A DNA stretch of 64,000 bases from Archaeoglobus veneficus SNP6 (GTDB taxonomy: Archaea; Halobacteriota; Archaeoglobi; Archaeoglobales; Archaeoglobaceae), in assembly GCF_000194625.1 (NCBI RefSeq), contig NC_015320.1, positions 186,001 to 250,000 of the forward strand, written 5' to 3'. The position numbers were made by a program, and so were the translations under genes. Of this stretch, positions 31,883 through 41,944 are shown piece by piece. The notes beneath the pieces were generated by a model that was not told the DNA's origin, did no database searches, and saw only the letters and a list, made by a program, of their open reading frames with translations. Position 1 is the first letter of the stretch; the number at the start of each line of letters is the position of its first letter.

Positions 31883-32051
31883 TCTTACTGTGATATATAA
31901 TATTTTCGATTCTTTTTGATATTTGTTAATCTCTATCTTATTTTTTTGTTAAATTATTCAGTGGTGCTACTGAGCAAGCAAATAAAACTGAATTATTTTA
32001 ATGATATGGCAAAATGTGAAGTGTTAAAAAATATTGCCGCAATGCGGTGCC

Positions 32052-32564
32052 ATGGGGAAAAGTTGCGCTATCGAGGTTTTGGTATGTTTACTGCTGGCGG
32101 TTTTAGCATTGACACCTGCTGCAGGGTTAAGCATAGTGCCAGACAAACAGATAGTCACCCCTGGGGAAAAGTACAGTTTTACTGTAGAGGGAGCAGAAGG
32201 GGCAATTAAAGCGATAATAGTAAACAACGTCACAAAGACTAAAGTCGACTGGGAAGTTAATGTTGAGGGGAGCACAGTTACAGTCAGTGTGCCTGAGGAT
32301 GCTAAGTTTGCCGAGTACATACTCAGAGTTGAGACATCGGGAAAGGTTGCTGAAGCGCACATCATCATCAAGCCACCCGTGGGTATAATGCTGGCAACTT
32401 TTGCGGTGCCAATATTTTTGAGCATCGGAATGCTGGGAGGAGGAATGTACGCATTTGTTAAGAAAAGAGGAATTGTGCGCTATGTTGGTGTTGGTGTAGC
32501 AGTATTTGGGATGTTGATCCTCTTCGGGGTGATAATGGCTATAGTTGCAGTCCAGATGGTGTAG
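32052..32564 (+). CDS. Exported Ig-like membrane protein, first gene of export cluster A
   Basis: Not recognised by family. From ATG 32052 the protein is 170 residues: signal peptide (about 5-25), a beta-rich extracellular domain of about 85 residues (VTPGEKYSFTVEG, STVTVSVPEDAKFAEYILRV), then two membrane helices with a short basic loop (KKRGIVRY). An earlier in-frame ATG (32034) is possible. Its stop lies three bases before the ABC ATPase, so it is the first gene of that operon and may be an accessory subunit of the exporter. Confidence 0.65.
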   Translation: MGKSCAIEVLVCLLLAVLALTPAAGLSIVPDKQIVTPGEKYSFTVEGAEGAIKAIIVNNVTKTKVDWEVNVEGSTVTVSVPEDAKFAEYILRVETSGKVAEAHIIIKPPVGIMLATFAVPIFLSIGMLGGGMYAFVKKRGIVRYVGVGVAVFGMLILFGVIMAIVAVQMV

Positions 32565-32567
32565 TCG

Positions 32568-33440
32568 ATGAAGCCGGTAACAGTATCAGGTGTGTCAAAG
32601 GCGTACGGGAAAAAGAAACTCATCTTAAAAAACATAGATTTTGATGTGGTTGAAGGCACGTGTGCCGGACTAATCGGTCCAAATGGTGCTGGTAAGACGA
32701 CCCTGATTAAAATCGTTGCTGGACTCATACAACCAACATCTGGGGAGGTAAAAGTATTTGGCAAAAACCCGTTTGAAGATTCTGTCAAGTCCCGGATAGG
32801 CTATATGCCAGAGCGACCAGAGTTTTTCGAAGAAAAGACTGTAAAGTACCACTTGGAGTTCTTTGCCAGACTACGGGGAATTGAAGTCGATTGTGATGAA
32901 ATTCTCTCTAAACTTGACCTCGATAGCTCTAAAAAAGCCCGAGAATTATCTAAGGGCATGCGTAAAAAGTTGTCTCTGGCTTTAGCTGTTCTCCACGATC
33001 CTGATTTGCTTATACTCGATGAACCCACCGCTGGATTGGATCCGCAGGCGACGGTTACTTTACATGAAATCGTCAGGGAGGCAGTAGAAAATGGTAAAAC
33101 TGTTTTGCTGTCCACGCATAACTTGTACGAGGTTGATGATTTATGTGATCGGGTTATATTCATCAATAGAGGCAAACTGTACTTTAATGGGCCAATTCAC
33201 GAACTTGCGACTTCTGCCGTTCTGCGACTTCAAACAAGCAATAATACAGCGGCAATAGAACTGCTAAGAAAGGCTGGAGTTGATGCACAGGTTACCGGTA
33301 AGTGGGTGGCAGTCAATAACAAGAGCGACATAGCTACAATTCTTGACATCCTTACAAGAAATGGCGTTGACGTGTTAAAAATGGAATCTCGCAAAAATCT
33401 TTACGAGGTTTTTGGGGACTTGAAGGAGGAGACGGGGTGA
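32568..33440 (+). CDS. ABC transporter ATPase (cluster A)
   Basis: A 290-residue ABC-2-type ATPase. Walker A GPNGAGKTT (about 38-46), signature LSKGMRKKLSL near 124, Walker B LLILDEPTAGLDP, H-loop STHN. The C-terminal 70 residues form an extra domain common in drug and peptide exporters. It overlaps the permease gene by four bases. Together with the SpoIIM-like gene it resembles the transport module of circular-bacteriocin loci. Substrate unknown. Confidence 0.9.
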   Translation: MKPVTVSGVSKAYGKKKLILKNIDFDVVEGTCAGLIGPNGAGKTTLIKIVAGLIQPTSGEVKVFGKNPFEDSVKSRIGYMPERPEFFEEKTVKYHLEFFARLRGIEVDCDEILSKLDLDSSKKARELSKGMRKKLSLALAVLHDPDLLILDEPTAGLDPQATVTLHEIVREAVENGKTVLLSTHNLYEVDDLCDRVIFINRGKLYFNGPIHELATSAVLRLQTSNNTAAIELLRKAGVDAQVTGKWVAVNNKSDIATILDILTRNGVDVLKMESRKNLYEVFGDLKEETG

Positions 33441-34165
33441 ACATCGTAAATACGCTTATTACGATGGAAAAGCTGAAGGATGATGTGTTTAGTTTCAAAT
33501 TGTTCTTTCTAATATGTTTAATTGGAACTTCGAGTTTGATTTCGTGGGGAATTTCAGAAACAGTTTTTATCCTTGCAAAAGATTCAACAGTTTTCGCCCT
33601 GATTTCAGCCCTTACATCAATTGTACTCTTCGCACCAATGGCTGGCATATTGCTTGGATCGGACACGTTTACGGGAAGTAGTAGAGAAATACTTCTTAGC
33701 TGCGTTTCAAGAAAAACTTACTTGTTGAGCAGGTGGGTGGCAGCTTATCTGTTGCTGGCAACTGGAATTGTTTTATCAATTGCGATTCCTGTGTTTATTT
33801 CATATATGCGATTTCATGGTGTTGAGTTTAATATAAATTTTCTGTTTGCAGTAGTATGTTTTCTCTTATTTTCACTCGTATTCGTCTCTGCATCTACTTG
33901 TTTTTCCGTACTGACAAACTCGACAATGGCATCCCTCATTCTCACTGGCATCTATACGACCATAGAAGCCGGAGTCGGGGTAATCGGGTATGTGTACCAG
34001 AATAAGCTCTTATACTACTTTTCCCCACATGCACTGGTTATAAAGGGTGTCCTTCCTGAACACGGTCAAATCGCAATGCAGTTAACTTCGATTGCAGTTC
34101 TGCTTTTTTATTCCATAGTATTTCTCTGGTTCGCCACGCACTATGGTGGGAGGAGGGACGTGTGA
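33437..34165 (+). CDS. ABC-2 type permease (cluster A)
   Basis: A 242-residue membrane protein with six hydrophobic helices. GSDTFTGSSREILLSCVSRKTYLLSRWVA after the second helix is the usual ABC-2 coupling region (E/D-G-x-R-E-x-L... then R-x-x-Y-L). It overlaps the ATPase and SpoIIM-like genes by four bases on each side, so the stoichiometry is probably coordinated. Expected to export a peptide, lipid or small molecule; substrate not visible. Confidence 0.82.
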   Translation: MNIVNTLITMEKLKDDVFSFKLFFLICLIGTSSLISWGISETVFILAKDSTVFALISALTSIVLFAPMAGILLGSDTFTGSSREILLSCVSRKTYLLSRWVAAYLLLATGIVLSIAIPVFISYMRFHGVEFNINFLFAVVCFLLFSLVFVSASTCFSVLTNSTMASLILTGIYTTIEAGVGVIGYVYQNKLLYYFSPHALVIKGVLPEHGQIAMQLTSIAVLLFYSIVFLWFATHYGGRRDV

Positions 34166-34686
34166 TGCTTCATGGTGTGTCCCATGTGATATCTCGTACA
34201 GCAGTGGAAGGTATCGCTCTCTCAGCAGCACTTTTTCTCGTATCTTTTGTTATCGGGGCAGTGTCTGGAAATGCCAGAATATCTCCAACCAATATTCAAC
34301 CCCCGCTGTATTACATCCTTGCCGTCAATTTGGGTCTGTGCCTTATAATGCTTCTTTCTGGGCTGCTTTTTGGCATACCGTCTTCCGCATTGCTTCTGTA
34401 CAATGGCTACATGCTTGGAGCGAAGTTTAAATCTGCTTTAATCTTTTTGGGGTTGAATGAGACAGTTATGAGGATGTTTCCACACCTATTTACCGAAGTA
34501 ATTGCGATTGTACTTGCTGCTTCAGTTGGAACTACCGTTATTATCGGTTTTGTGAAGAAGAAAGAGGTAAATAGTAAAGATTTAGTACCTATTGCTGTGC
34601 TGGCAGTTATTATGACGGTAACTTCGAGCTACATTGAAGTTTATGTGACTCATAATGCTGTAATTTTGAGTGAGGTGGTGCGATGA
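34162..34686 (+). CDS. SpoIIM/DUF95 family membrane protein
   Basis: A 174-residue protein with about five helices. LLFGIPSSALLLYNGYMLGAKF followed by PHLFTEVIAIVLAASVGT matches the SpoIIM/DUF95 pattern (small-residue helix, NG..lG, then PH...E). In Firmicutes, DUF95 proteins are essential parts of circular-bacteriocin gene clusters, acting in secretion or immunity; others act in sporulation or have unknown roles. Overlaps on both sides by four bases tie it to the ABC genes and the next membrane protein. Confidence 0.78.
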   Translation: MMLHGVSHVISRTAVEGIALSAALFLVSFVIGAVSGNARISPTNIQPPLYYILAVNLGLCLIMLLSGLLFGIPSSALLLYNGYMLGAKFKSALIFLGLNETVMRMFPHLFTEVIAIVLAASVGTTVIIGFVKKKEVNSKDLVPIAVLAVIMTVTSSYIEVYVTHNAVILSEVVR

Positions 34687-35108
34687 CCGAGGATAAAATT
34701 AAGCTTGATCGGACTACTATAGTGGGGTTGTTGATTTTTGCTGTTGGTTTGCACATGTATGGGTGGTACGTTGTCCAGTTTGAACTTCTTTTATTACCTT
34801 TGAAGAGTGGAGTCGTGCTTGCTCATCTTTTAACGATTTGCGGAATTATCGCCATCATAACTTCACTAAAGCGGGCAGAAAGGAAAAAAGTATTGGCTGT
34901 GTTAGAATATACTGCTACCATTCTGTTTTGTTCATTTTTGGTTGTATCGCTATTGTTTCATATGAAATATGGAATTGTAAGTCCGGGAAGAGGAAATGCA
35001 CTGACTATATTCGAGTATGATACTCCAATAAGGTTCTATGCAGCGGGGCTACTTATGCTTACCTTGTCACTGATGGTACTAACTAGACTAAATAAAATTA
35101 TAGAATGA
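34683..35108 (+). CDS. Small membrane protein closing export cluster A
   Basis: Not recognised. A 141-residue protein with about four hydrophobic helices and a basic KRAERKKVL loop between helices two and three. Its overlap with the SpoIIM-like gene makes it the last gene of the operon. In circular-bacteriocin loci this position often carries a small membrane immunity protein, but those are normally shorter, so the comparison is only positional. Confidence 0.62.
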   Translation: MTEDKIKLDRTTIVGLLIFAVGLHMYGWYVVQFELLLLPLKSGVVLAHLLTICGIIAIITSLKRAERKKVLAVLEYTATILFCSFLVVSLLFHMKYGIVSPGRGNALTIFEYDTPIRFYAAGLLMLTLSLMVLTRLNKIIE

Positions 35109-35145: not shown

Positions 35146-35526
35146 TCACAGCCACCAAATAAATTGAGCTGCGTACCAAAATGCTCTCCATTGCCAACTT
35201 AATCCAAGACCCACCAGTTTAAAAGCCTCCAATAAGACGTCCGCAGTTGCTGCAATAACATCTCCTCCTGCTTGGGCAATTTCCCCCTCACTAAGATCCC
35301 AGATAAAGTCTACTAATGCTGCTGCTATGGTCCATGCTGTCCCATATTCTCCGATAATTGTAAAAGACACCCACTTAAAAACATCCCAGAAACTAGGGAG
35401 CGTCCCATGGTCGCACCAGTAAGTAAATTCCATCATCGGCGCACCAATAGCTCCAAGCAACAACGCAACACACAGAATTGCTGTTGTAGTCGTCATCATT
35501 CTTTTATCGACGACAACGTACTCCAC
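35146..35526 (-). CDS. Candidate secreted Trp-rich peptide precursor
   Basis: Not recognised. From GTG 35526, eight bases or fewer after the Shine-Dalgarno GGAGGTGA, the product is 126 residues: a basic start (VDKR), a hydrophobic signal-like segment (TTTTAILCVALLLGAIGAP), then about 95 residues with three hydrophobic, helix-prone stretches and at least nine tryptophans, ending FWYAAQFIWWL. An in-frame start at 35562 is less likely. It is encoded opposite to and between two ABC export operons. Size, leader and composition fit a membrane-active peptide, but no known bacteriocin motif was found, so a plain membrane protein is possible. Confidence 0.55.
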   Translation of the reverse strand: MEYVVVDKRMMTTTTAILCVALLLGAIGAPMMEFTYWCDHGTLPSFWDVFKWVSFTIIGEYGTAWTIAAALVDFIWDLSEGEIAQAGGDVIAATADVLLEAFKLVGLGLSWQWRAFWYAAQFIWWL

Positions 35527-35602
35527 ACCCTCACCTCCTTTTTTATCAGATAAAATCAACAAAAATTACAAAAGGAGTTTGAACCTGCATGTTTTGCCGG
35601 AT

Positions 35603-35619
35603 GCAACGTTTTGAGTTGC
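35603..35619. promoter_or_regulatory. Inverted repeat between divergent peptide and ABC genes
   Basis: Perfect repeat GCAAC-N7-GTTGC in the intergenic space shared by the Trp-rich peptide gene (minus) and the ABC permease of cluster B (plus). It lies upstream of a TATA-like GTTTTATATC (about 35638-35647) that is 25-30 bases from ATG 35672. Operator function is inferred from position. Confidence 0.4.
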
Positions 35620-35671
35620 GATTTCCGCAAATTAGAATGTTTTATATCGCAAATACAGGCGGGTAACTAAT

Positions 35672-36337
35672 ATGAATATAAACGAACGCATAAGGCCAAT
35701 CGTTAAAAAGGAGTGGCTACTGTTCAGGAGGGAGGGAGCGGTTAAGTGGATTCTAATTGGACTCCTATTAACTTTGGGGCTTCAGGTTATTTATATCCTG
35801 AACGATGTGGAGACGAGTAAAGTCGTAGGAGCTTTTATGAGCATGCTTTTGGCATTTGGCTTCATCACTACCGCATCGCCGTTAATAGTAGCTGGAGAAA
35901 AAGAATCTGGAACCTTGGAAGTACTCCTGACTGAAGCAACCTCCAGAGAGGTTTTCTGGAGCAAGGTTCTCTTTGTTTCCATCATACCTCTGCTGATTAC
36001 CACCATAAGCTTCATTATCGCACTGCTGACAATGGTATTTACCGGCATCTGGTTGGAGGCAATTGTCTTTTACGCATCTGTGTGCCTCACCATACTGACA
36101 TTGGCTATTACAGGCGTTATTGCTTCGGCAAAGAGCAAGAGCATTATGGAAGCTTACCAGCTCTCACGTCAGACGTTTATTTTGCCAGCAATCCCTATGA
36201 CCGCTGTAATGCTGGCAATGCTTAATGCTCCGAATCTGATAGCTATACCTTTCATCCTCCAAATCGCTTTGTTCGTGGGGATATACAAAATCGGTGTCAG
36301 GAAGTTTGAAGACGTAGAGAGGCTGGTGTATTCGTGA
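35672..36337 (+). CDS. ABC-2 type permease (cluster B)
   Basis: A 221-residue membrane protein with six helices. EKESGTLEVLLTEATSREVFWSK after helix two is a classic ABC-2 coupling motif (E-x-x-G-T-L-E-x-L-L). The gene precedes its ATPase, the reverse of clusters A and C, and overlaps it by four bases. The start ATG 35672 is likely leaderless. Substrate unknown; the divergent Trp-rich peptide is the nearest candidate. Confidence 0.85.
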   Translation: MNINERIRPIVKKEWLLFRREGAVKWILIGLLLTLGLQVIYILNDVETSKVVGAFMSMLLAFGFITTASPLIVAGEKESGTLEVLLTEATSREVFWSKVLFVSIIPLLITTISFIIALLTMVFTGIWLEAIVFYASVCLTILTLAITGVIASAKSKSIMEAYQLSRQTFILPAIPMTAVMLAMLNAPNLIAIPFILQIALFVGIYKIGVRKFEDVERLVYS

Positions 36338-37215
36338 TTGAGTTCGTTAACGTATGCAAGAAGTTCGGCAGAATAATGGCCCTGAACGAAGTTTCTCTGG
36401 ATATTGGTAGAGGTATTACGGCAATCATAGGGCCAAACGGAGCTGGAAAAACGACTCTAATTCGCTTAATCCTTGGCCTCCTTAAGCCCACATCTGGCGA
36501 GCTATCGGTTATGGGCGTAAATCCAGCTACTGAAAGGGATAGGCTGATAGGTAGCATTGCTTATGTGCCTGAGAAAACAGCGGTGTACGAAAAAATGACT
36601 GCTCACGAATATCTCAGCTTTTTCGCAGCACTCAAAGGCTTGGATGTTGACGTGGAAGGAATTCTTGCAAGATATGGATTGATTGAAAGAGCTGACGACA
36701 GCATATCCACATTCTCTAAGGGCATGAAACGCCGATTGGAACTAGCCAGAGTACTTATGAGTGAGCCAGAAATACTTGTTCTCGATGAACCCTTCTCCGG
36801 AATAGACCCGGAGTCAAGGATTGAGATCCGGAAAATCATTCAAACTTCACGCAGCAAAATCGTTGTTATGTGTAGTCACGACCTGCATGAGGTTGAACAG
36901 ATTGCTGATACTGTGGTGGTGTTGAGAAACGGAAACGTAGTCCTTCATGATAACATTGAAAGACTTCTAACCAGAATCGACAACATAAAGCTCACAATCC
37001 GCGGTGTTTTTGATGATGAGACTGGAAGAATACTTGGCAAATTTGGAGCTGAAATAATAGAGCTAAGAAAAGACCGCGTAACACTAATAGTTAACGACCG
37101 AACTCTCATGCCAGCATTGATTCGAGAATTATCAAGCAACTATGAACTATTCGAGATCGCCTCCGACACAAATCTTGAGAAAATTTTTATAGATATGATC
37201 AAGTTAGATTGTTGA
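36334..37215 (+). CDS. ABC transporter ATPase (cluster B)
   Basis: A 293-residue ATPase: Walker A GPNGAGKTT (about 34-42), signature FSKGMKRRLELA near 129, Walker B ILVLDEPFSGIDP, H-loop CSHD, and a C-terminal accessory domain of about 80 residues. The start is GTG inside the permease stop region. It is similar in plan to the other two ATPases of the island, suggesting duplication or co-selection of ABC-2 exporters. Confidence 0.9.
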   Translation: MIEFVNVCKKFGRIMALNEVSLDIGRGITAIIGPNGAGKTTLIRLILGLLKPTSGELSVMGVNPATERDRLIGSIAYVPEKTAVYEKMTAHEYLSFFAALKGLDVDVEGILARYGLIERADDSISTFSKGMKRRLELARVLMSEPEILVLDEPFSGIDPESRIEIRKIIQTSRSKIVVMCSHDLHEVEQIADTVVVLRNGNVVLHDNIERLLTRIDNIKLTIRGVFDDETGRILGKFGAEIIELRKDRVTLIVNDRTLMPALIRELSSNYELFEIASDTNLEKIFIDMIKLDC

Positions 37216-39712: not shown

Positions 39713-41397
39713 GGTTTATCGTATTTGCTGTTGTCATTGCATTTATACTTACAGGTTCAGTTGAAAGCGGTGTAAAAGGAGTTTCTGCAGTCCCGGGAGA
39801 GACCTTAACTTTTACAATAACTGTGACCAACGACTTCGGCAGCCCTGTAACATATTCTCTATCGTATTCAGCTCCTGATGGCTTTGCTGGCAGCTTCATT
39901 TTTGATGGTGAGGAAGTCACATACCTCAGACTGAATGCAAATGAAAGCAAGACTATCCAATTTCAGCTTGAAGTACCGAAAACAGCAAAGGAGGGAACGT
40001 ATCTGGTCTGGATAAATGCGGGGGGCAGTTTTTCTTTTAGAATTGATATTAAGATGCCAGAAGACCCTCTGGAAATAATTCCCTCGATTACTGGTATCAG
40101 AGTTGAGGCGGGGGACAAGGTGTCCTTACCAATAACTCTTAAAAATAAAATTAATGCTCAGCTTGAAGTAGATCTTTTATGCGTATCTCCGAAAAACTGG
40201 AGTTACAGATTTTTAGATGGAAAAAACGAAGTGTATCGGATAATTATGGAGCCAAATGAGAAAAAGGACATAGTACTTGAGATTGAAACAGATAGTGAAG
40301 CCGCGGTTGGTGAATACACTGTTAAACCTTGTTTTAATAAGCAATTTGTTAAAATCTCAGTCTATATAACTAAGACACACCGGGGAGAACTCGGTAAGAT
40401 AAAGTTAAAACTACTGGGAAAGGACGGAAGAGCTGTTGATTTCGCCAGAATAAGAGCGGCGGGAGAAGTTGAGGAAACGGTATTCTCTTCTTCAGAGGGA
40501 GAGGGACTTATAGAACTTCCTCAAGGTAAGTACAATATCGAAATTGTAAAGGATGGTTTTTACAAAAAAGAGATAAAAGACGTTGAAGTCAGAGCAGGTA
40601 AAACAACAGATATAGGAATTATTCTCCTTGAAAAGAAACCATATTATGCCGACATCATAGTAACAAACCCTAAAGTGAGTTTTACACTTGGTAAAGGGAA
40701 TCCTCTCTTTAAGTTCAGAATAGAAAACAAAGGTTACAGGGATGATAGTTATAAGCTCAGCGTCTTGGGATTGCCTGAGAGATTCTATTATAGATTTAAA
40801 GAAACGCCAGATTCTACAGAGGGTATATCTGAAGTGTTTATTAGAAGTGGCGAATCAAGGGACGTGTACTTGGAAATAGTTGTCCCGTACAATGCGAAGG
40901 TTGGCAGTTACAATATAACGTTGTACGTAAATGGTTTTTGTGGAACTATAAGCAGAAATCTGACTTTAAGCCTGAAAGGAGAGTATGTACTGAAGGTAGA
41001 ACCGTTTGGTGGCAGGTATTTAATAACCACCGAACCTGGAAAGGTATCTGAATTCAAGCTGATCATCACAAATTCTGGCAAAGGGGCAGCAATAACGAAC
41101 GTCAAGATAGATGTGAGAGCTCCAGCTGGCTGGGATGTTTTCATTGAGCCCAAGGAAATACCTGCCATACAACCAGGAGAAAGTATGGTTACGATGTTGA
41201 GGGTAGTGGTTCCAGCAGACACAATACCAAGCGAATATAAACTTGAAGTACACGTTAAAAGCGACCAGAGTGCCGTACAGGAAGATTTAAGAGTTGTTGT
41301 AAAGGAAAAAAGCTATTCGCTAATTTTAGGGGGTATGATTATTCTCGTCTCTATCGTCAGTTTGGTCCTGATTTTTAGAAAGTTTGGGAGAAAATAG
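39709..41397 (+). CDS. NEW3-domain surface protein (cluster C)
   Basis: A 562-residue exported protein: signal peptide (1-20), then tandem beta-sandwich domains. NEW3-type repeats begin near residues 28, 325 and 430 (PGETLTFTITVTNDFG; PGKVSEFKLIITNSGKG), and a carboxypeptidase-regulatory-like domain sits near 230-305 (GKYNIEIVKDGFYKKEI). A membrane helix at about 536-556 with a basic tail anchors it. Proteins of this kind are coupled to ABC-2 exporters in archaea and Firmicutes. It may be a cell-surface adaptor of the cluster C exporter. Confidence 0.8.
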   Translation: MRFIVFAVVIAFILTGSVESGVKGVSAVPGETLTFTITVTNDFGSPVTYSLSYSAPDGFAGSFIFDGEEVTYLRLNANESKTIQFQLEVPKTAKEGTYLVWINAGGSFSFRIDIKMPEDPLEIIPSITGIRVEAGDKVSLPITLKNKINAQLEVDLLCVSPKNWSYRFLDGKNEVYRIIMEPNEKKDIVLEIETDSEAAVGEYTVKPCFNKQFVKISVYITKTHRGELGKIKLKLLGKDGRAVDFARIRAAGEVEETVFSSSEGEGLIELPQGKYNIEIVKDGFYKKEIKDVEVRAGKTTDIGIILLEKKPYYADIIVTNPKVSFTLGKGNPLFKFRIENKGYRDDSYKLSVLGLPERFYYRFKETPDSTEGISEVFIRSGESRDVYLEIVVPYNAKVGSYNITLYVNGFCGTISRNLTLSLKGEYVLKVEPFGGRYLITTEPGKVSEFKLIITNSGKGAAITNVKIDVRAPAGWDVFIEPKEIPAIQPGESMVTMLRVVVPADTIPSEYKLEVHVKSDQSAVQEDLRVVVKEKSYSLILGGMIILVSIVSLVLIFRKFGRK

Positions 41398-41557
41398 GGT
41401 TTACCACAAGTATGTTGCGATAGCATGTATTTGTCTTTAATCTGACTGACTTACCGTCATAATAGCATAGCAAGCAGTGGCTATTAGTTGTGTATTTCAA
41501 AAAAGAGTGGGAAAAAACTGAAAAAGGGATAAGTACGCCACACCTTCCCGAGATAGT

Positions 41558-41944
41558 ATGAAGAAAGTCCTGTTCGTCTGCGTCCAGAACACGTGCAGAA
41601 GCGTGATGGCCGAGAGCATATTCAACAGCCTGGCGAAGGAATGGAAAGCCGAATCTGCAGGAGTTGAAAAGGCAGACCGGCTTGATGATACTGCTATTGA
41701 AGTTATATGGAAGTTCGGCTATAGTGTCGATAAGGAAAGGCCAAGGGGGCTGGACGAAGTCAATATTGAGGAATACGACTTTGTTGTTACGGTTTGCAGT
41801 GAGAGCTGCGCTGCAATTCCGCATAAGAACGTTGAAAGGTGGAATATTGAGGATCCGAAAGGGAAGGATATTGTGATTTACGAGAGGGTTTTTTCAGAGA
41901 TTGAAAAGAGGGTAAAGGAGTTGCTGGATAGGATTGAGGATTGA
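41558..41944 (+). CDS. Arsenate reductase/low-molecular-weight phosphatase family
   Basis: A 128-residue protein with P-loop CVQNTCRS (8-15), the active site of LMW tyrosine phosphatases and thioredoxin-type ArsC. The extra cysteines in VTVCSESCAAIP (about 75-86) fit the redox relay of ArsC arsenate reductases; the Asp in NIEDPKG is the general acid. It would reduce arsenate or dephosphorylate proteins. No other ars gene is nearby. A decayed partial copy lies downstream. Confidence 0.82.
   Translation: MKKVLFVCVQNTCRSVMAESIFNSLAKEWKAESAGVEKADRLDDTAIEVIWKFGYSVDKERPRGLDEVNIEEYDFVVTVCSESCAAIPHKNVERWNIEDPKGKDIVIYERVFSEIEKRVKELLDRIED

Follow-up and report, generated by a model that had tools for sequence, protein, structure and literature searches.

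A Trp-rich orphan gene beside a SpoIIM/ABC operon of Archaeoglobus veneficus may encode an exported peptide

Circular bacteriocins have a core of about 58-70 aa and a saposin-like fold with 4-5 helices, and the leaderless aureocin-like bacteriocins, which have a saposin fold, are Trp-rich and helical. Circular bacteriocins have been described from bacteria, and the enzyme responsible for cutting and joining them is unknown (PMC8659200). SpoIIM/DUF95 is regarded as class-defining for their gene clusters, in which a transporter and a small protein for immunity are also encoded, in some cases with Yip1 (PMC13289728, PMC8659200). SpoIIM loci were noticed earlier as variable membrane cassettes and taken as defence systems (PMC4158269), and they have also been interpreted in terms of membrane remodelling (PMC5898192). 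Our literature searches yielded no description of circular bacteriocins from Archaeoglobus, which is weak evidence as the literature covered was mostly open-access.

Here we consider a gene encoding a 126-residue protein (the focal gene, Table 1) in a 64,000-nucleotide stretch (the window) of the Archaeoglobus veneficus SNP6 genome, which comprises 1,901,943 bp in a single contig. The gene lies in an island, at 32-44 kb of the window, with a G+C content of ~41-43% compared with ~45-50% around it; this island was apparently acquired. We tentatively propose that the adjacent ABC/SpoIIM system acts on the focal protein as its leader-bearing substrate, in the style of a circular-bacteriocin cluster. 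Because of the size, charge and strand of the gene product and the lack of recurrence, our confidence in this reading falls somewhat short of even.

Table 1. Features of the window around the focal gene
Feature	Position	Strand	Remarks
First operon gene, predicted secreted protein with C-terminal TM anchor	32034..32564	+	weak sub-cutoff family matches
ABC exporter ATPase	32568..33440	+	PF00005 2.6e-31; DrrA/GldA-like NCBIfam profiles
Divergent ABC-2-like permease	33437..34165	+	weak PF12698
SpoIIM/DUF95 membrane protein	34162..34686	+	PF01944, 1.6e-17
Small multi-TM protein, candidate immunity/accessory subunit	34683..35108	+	match to SpoIIM-cassette protein
Focal gene	35146..35526	-	orphan, 126 aa; residues 1-30 leader/signal-like; 31-126 putative core
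Shine-Dalgarno AGGAGGTGA region 5' of GTG start	35530..35540	-
Intergenic region common to focal gene and second ABC operon	35527..35671	.
Start of second ABC operon, divergent from focal gene	35672..37215	+	permease 35672-36337, ATPase 36334-37215

The SpoIIM/ABC operon and archaeal peptide cassettes

The initial annotation placed the gene between two ABC export operons. The ATPase and permease of the first operon are confirmed, and a SpoIIM/DUF95 gene that had been missed is present in the same operon, its product scoring 64.4 bits against a curated cut-off of 26.9 for PF01944. The permease has no homologue at E≤0.001 in 99 relatives and its best match in the phylum is at 1.4e-5. No family in Pfam or NCBIfam could be assigned to the last operon gene; its best non-self match among ORFs of the retrieved loci, at E 0.002, comes from a SpoIIM cassette, of which it is the small TM protein. 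Two hallmarks of circular-bacteriocin clusters are thus found, namely the SpoIIM/DUF95 gene and an ABC ATPase with its permease, and the presence of these genes together with a small membrane protein, in an operon whose end lies 37 bp from the focal gene, supports the assignment of the focal protein as the substrate. Orthologues of the ABC ATPase were tried as a guide and set aside; the nearest relatives are located beside gatD, with neither SpoIIM nor a comparable peptide gene.

Among 72,556 plasmids, the top match to the window SpoIIM, although weak (E 0.08), is a SpoIIM annotated as part of an uberolysin/carnocyclin circular-bacteriocin cluster on Anoxybacillus pDSM15939_2, and the two proteins align over their full length with 29% identity. 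In a tree of 70 SpoIIM sequences, 41 of them housekeeping archaeal proteins, the housekeeping set is split (99/96) from the SpoIIMs of peptide cassettes, of the bacteriocin cluster and of the window. The window SpoIIM thus groups apart from housekeeping SpoIIMs, on a long branch on the side of the peptide cassettes and the bacterial circular-bacteriocin cluster. Its pairing with the bacteriocin SpoIIM as sister (80/26) was discounted as a long-branch join, and when either is omitted the remaining one is found on the stem between the cassette and housekeeping groups. Because of this long branch, only the exclusion of the window SpoIIM from the housekeeping clade is used here.

The cassettes themselves are found in archaeoglobal genomes, where a precursor gene is accompanied by those for SpoIIM and a small membrane protein and, in many cases, by a divergent Yip1 gene (PF04893, 1.2e-30). 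About 30 archaeoglobal precursors were collected (loci include L038:9384-10562, L040, L041, L044, L045, L048, L050, L053, L056 and L086), and SpoIIM is located downstream in 26 of the 32 recognised in these genomes; the first of the listed loci is carried by the host genome itself. The precursors share a near-constant 30-aa leader (MYxVxxW(N/D)EEVxKWLAVGMxLAMVGMAVMP) followed by variable, Gly/Ala-rich cores of 57-78 aa (mean 64) with net charges of -5 to +1, and on this analysis the family may be described as circular-bacteriocin-like. No Pfam or NCBIfam model, including those of circular-bacteriocin families, matched these precursors, and their AlphaFold models were uninformative (pLDDT 58). 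The SpoIIMs of these cassettes (for example L040:9794-10330 and L056:4101-4628) have a mean identity of 25% in the N-terminal part and 80% in the C-terminal part, with corresponding DNA-level values of 0.68 for the leader, 0.47 for the core, 0.47 for the N-terminal and 0.76 for the C-terminal part of SpoIIM. As conserved ends flank a variable middle, exchange of cassettes by recombination is suggested.

Leaders vary by lineage. A Methanomethylovorans plasmid (L149:2694-3492), laid out like the archaeoglobal cassettes, encodes a tandem pair of hydrophobic 66-aa peptides that are almost the same in sequence and lack the archaeoglobal leader, alongside SpoIIM, a divergent YIP1 protein and a small TM protein. 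The near-constant C-terminal half of the cassette SpoIIMs is missing in the window SpoIIM (29% versus 80%), so a different leader in its substrate would not be surprising. The locus also resembles the arCOG01996 SpoIIM/DUF95 cassettes (PMC4158269, PMC5898192) in combining SpoIIM, a small membrane protein and a fast-evolving small gene, and some of those loci likewise contain an ABC transporter; it differs in having no canonical leader and no Yip1 among the genes scanned. Taken together, the cassettes of the relatives strengthen the case for bacteriocin-like peptides as the products of archaeal SpoIIM loci.

Two further observations concern these loci. The host genome contains a degraded second cassette (L038:6831-7750), in which the SpoIIM frame is broken by two stops; before it lies a gene for a membrane protein whose start is leader-like, and transposase-like ORFs are found further upstream. 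Directly 3' of one SpoIIM cassette lies an AF2212-like and PIN-domain pair of the toxin-antitoxin type (L044:8525-8994), and other cassettes are likewise followed by similar small pairs.

The focal protein and its alternatives

As initially described, a signal-like segment precedes the bulk of the protein; the segment spans about 30 residues and the remainder 96, where about 95 had been given. The protein contains ten Trp residues, where at least nine had been counted, all ten of them in the putative core, as well as eight Phe residues, and it ends in QFIWWL, which includes the FIWWL noted before. The core carries a net charge of -8. Three hydrophobic, helix-prone stretches had been claimed after the leader; a helical structure is predicted at low confidence, but a single clear hydrophobic segment is present (residues ~10-28, KD up to 2.0), after a short charged start, and the later stretches are moderately hydrophobic (19-residue KD ≤1.55) and amphipathic, which makes the protein look unlike an ordinary multi-TM protein. 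Structure prediction had been recommended, and AlphaFold, run from the single sequence, gave an all-helical model with five helices after the leader but a pLDDT of 49, for which Foldseek retrieved no PDB match at E≤0.001.

An ordinary Sec signal peptide would account for the hydrophobic segment equally well. The focal protein might be an accessory protein of the island, exported through Sec or anchored by its N-terminus and serving, for example, as an immunity or adaptor subunit in either ABC operon, rather than an exported peptide, an alternative that we consider unlikely although stronger than those discussed below. Residues 8-28 have the make-up of a normal signal peptide (KR, then AILCVALLLGAIGA), and several small proteins of secreted or membrane type are encoded in the island. 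The upstream region is common to the focal gene and the second ABC operon, which favours the accessory role; this sharing, the strand opposite to that of the SpoIIM operon and a separate promoter argue against the substrate. An inverted repeat within this shared region (TTGCGAT/ATCGCAA at 35616-35622 and 35646-35652) is short and is possibly an operator or a chance occurrence; it overlaps TTTATAT (35641-35647), a TATA-like sequence belonging to the second ABC operon. Against an accessory role, a small membrane protein that is a candidate for immunity is already encoded in the SpoIIM operon, and the core of the focal protein lacks a strong TM segment.

Sequence searches leave the focal protein an orphan. 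It matches no family at E≤1 in Pfam, NCBIfam or PHROGs, including the Pfam and NCBIfam models of known circular bacteriocins, and no PDB sequence. A search for homologues beside ABC genes had been suggested, and none was found among 60 relatives, 394 genomes of the phylum, viral contigs and plasmids, nor did a pattern scan across 84,980 species return anything real; repeated weak matches in the phylum proved to reflect chance similarity with the P-loop region of ABC proteins. In consequence, no repeated linkage of the gene with SpoIIM/ABC can be seen. Membership of the archaeoglobal precursor family, which a resemblance of the leaders had suggested by eye, was overturned by an HMM of the cassette leader and a shuffle control, as the focal leader ranks 191 of 212 and 419 of 500 shuffles score equally or higher; the conserved cassette leader is also absent among the window ORFs at E≤10. 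The lack of homologues and the position in a low-GC, apparently acquired stretch would fit an unrelated orphan gene that happens to lie between two operons. We regard this as improbable, since bacteriocin precursors can also be orphans and the spacing to the SpoIIM operon is tight.

The frame itself is a real gene. Its translation is uninterrupted from the GTG at 35526 to the TGA at 35146, exactly as initially annotated, and the start is preceded by AAAAAAGGAGGTGAGGGT-GTG, in which nine bases (AGGAGGTGA) match the Shine-Dalgarno sequence and bear out the earlier description of a strong site. The synonymous-codon score is on a par with that of the island genes, and dinucleotide shuffling of the 563-bp gap produced an ORF of 126 aa or more in 14 of 2000 trials. 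As had been stated for the island, it is the only minus-strand gene, which holds for clearly supported genes between 32.0 and 41.4 kb; a minus-strand ORF of 149 aa at 41375-41824 is doubtful. Although there is no homologue to reveal selection on the frame, that it goes untranslated is very improbable in view of the strong Shine-Dalgarno sequence, the top codon score among the six frames and the recovery of such an ORF plus Shine-Dalgarno sequence in 0 of 2000 shuffles.

A candidate substrate of the SpoIIM/ABC system

In its proposed role as substrate, the focal protein would be a secreted precursor consisting of a leader of ~30 residues with one hydrophobic segment and a Trp-rich, amphipathic, helix-prone core of ~96 residues. 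The leader would presumably be removed, the ABC ATPase, permease, SpoIIM and small membrane protein would export and mature the peptide and protect the producer, and the product may be an antagonistic, membrane-active peptide. The SpoIIM tree split, the match to the bacteriocin cluster and the cassette match of the small TM protein appear to support this assignment. In addition, the window SpoIIM has no canonical precursor, and no other uncommitted frame of similar size with a Shine-Dalgarno sequence was found in the stretch.

The comparison with known peptides is mixed. Uberolysin/carnocyclin circular bacteriocins, such as that of Anoxybacillus pDSM15939_2, likewise combine a leader-bearing hydrophobic precursor with SpoIIM, an ABC ATPase and small hydrophobic proteins, and circular bacteriocins have an aromatic residue near the C-terminus, as does the focal protein. 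In contrast, the focal sequence is dissimilar to known precursors, its gene is on the opposite strand, and its core, at ~96 aa after the predicted leader, is acidic and exceeds the size range of this class; it is also longer and more acidic than the cores of the archaeoglobal cassettes, to the leaders of which its own is unrelated. Aureocin-like bacteriocins are similarly Trp-rich and helical, but the focal protein has a leader-like segment, a roughly twofold longer, acidic core and no match to their models. The earlier suggestion of an exported product is thus strengthened by SpoIIM/DUF95 in the operon and its full-length alignment with a circular-bacteriocin-cluster SpoIIM, and weakened by the opposite strand and the lack of homologues. 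The more specific comparison with saposin-like circular bacteriocins finds no clear support, given the absence of family or PDB sequence matches and of homologues, the low pLDDT, the size and charge of the core and the lack of kinship with local precursors. The SpoIIM/ABC context therefore supports a substrate, not a member of a known bacteriocin family.

A more far-reaching interpretation, which we consider rather unlikely, is that a peptide produced by this hyperthermophilic archaeon, large, acidic, Trp-rich, matured by SpoIIM/ABC and possibly circular, represents a bacteriocin class without known relative, and more broadly that circular-bacteriocin-like peptides are the products of archaeal SpoIIM loci. 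If this were true, SpoIIM-linked archaeal peptides would extend the circular-bacteriocin class to another domain and would offer heat-stable versions of these peptides, and archaeal SpoIIM loci, so far taken as defence or membrane-remodelling systems, would need a new interpretation.
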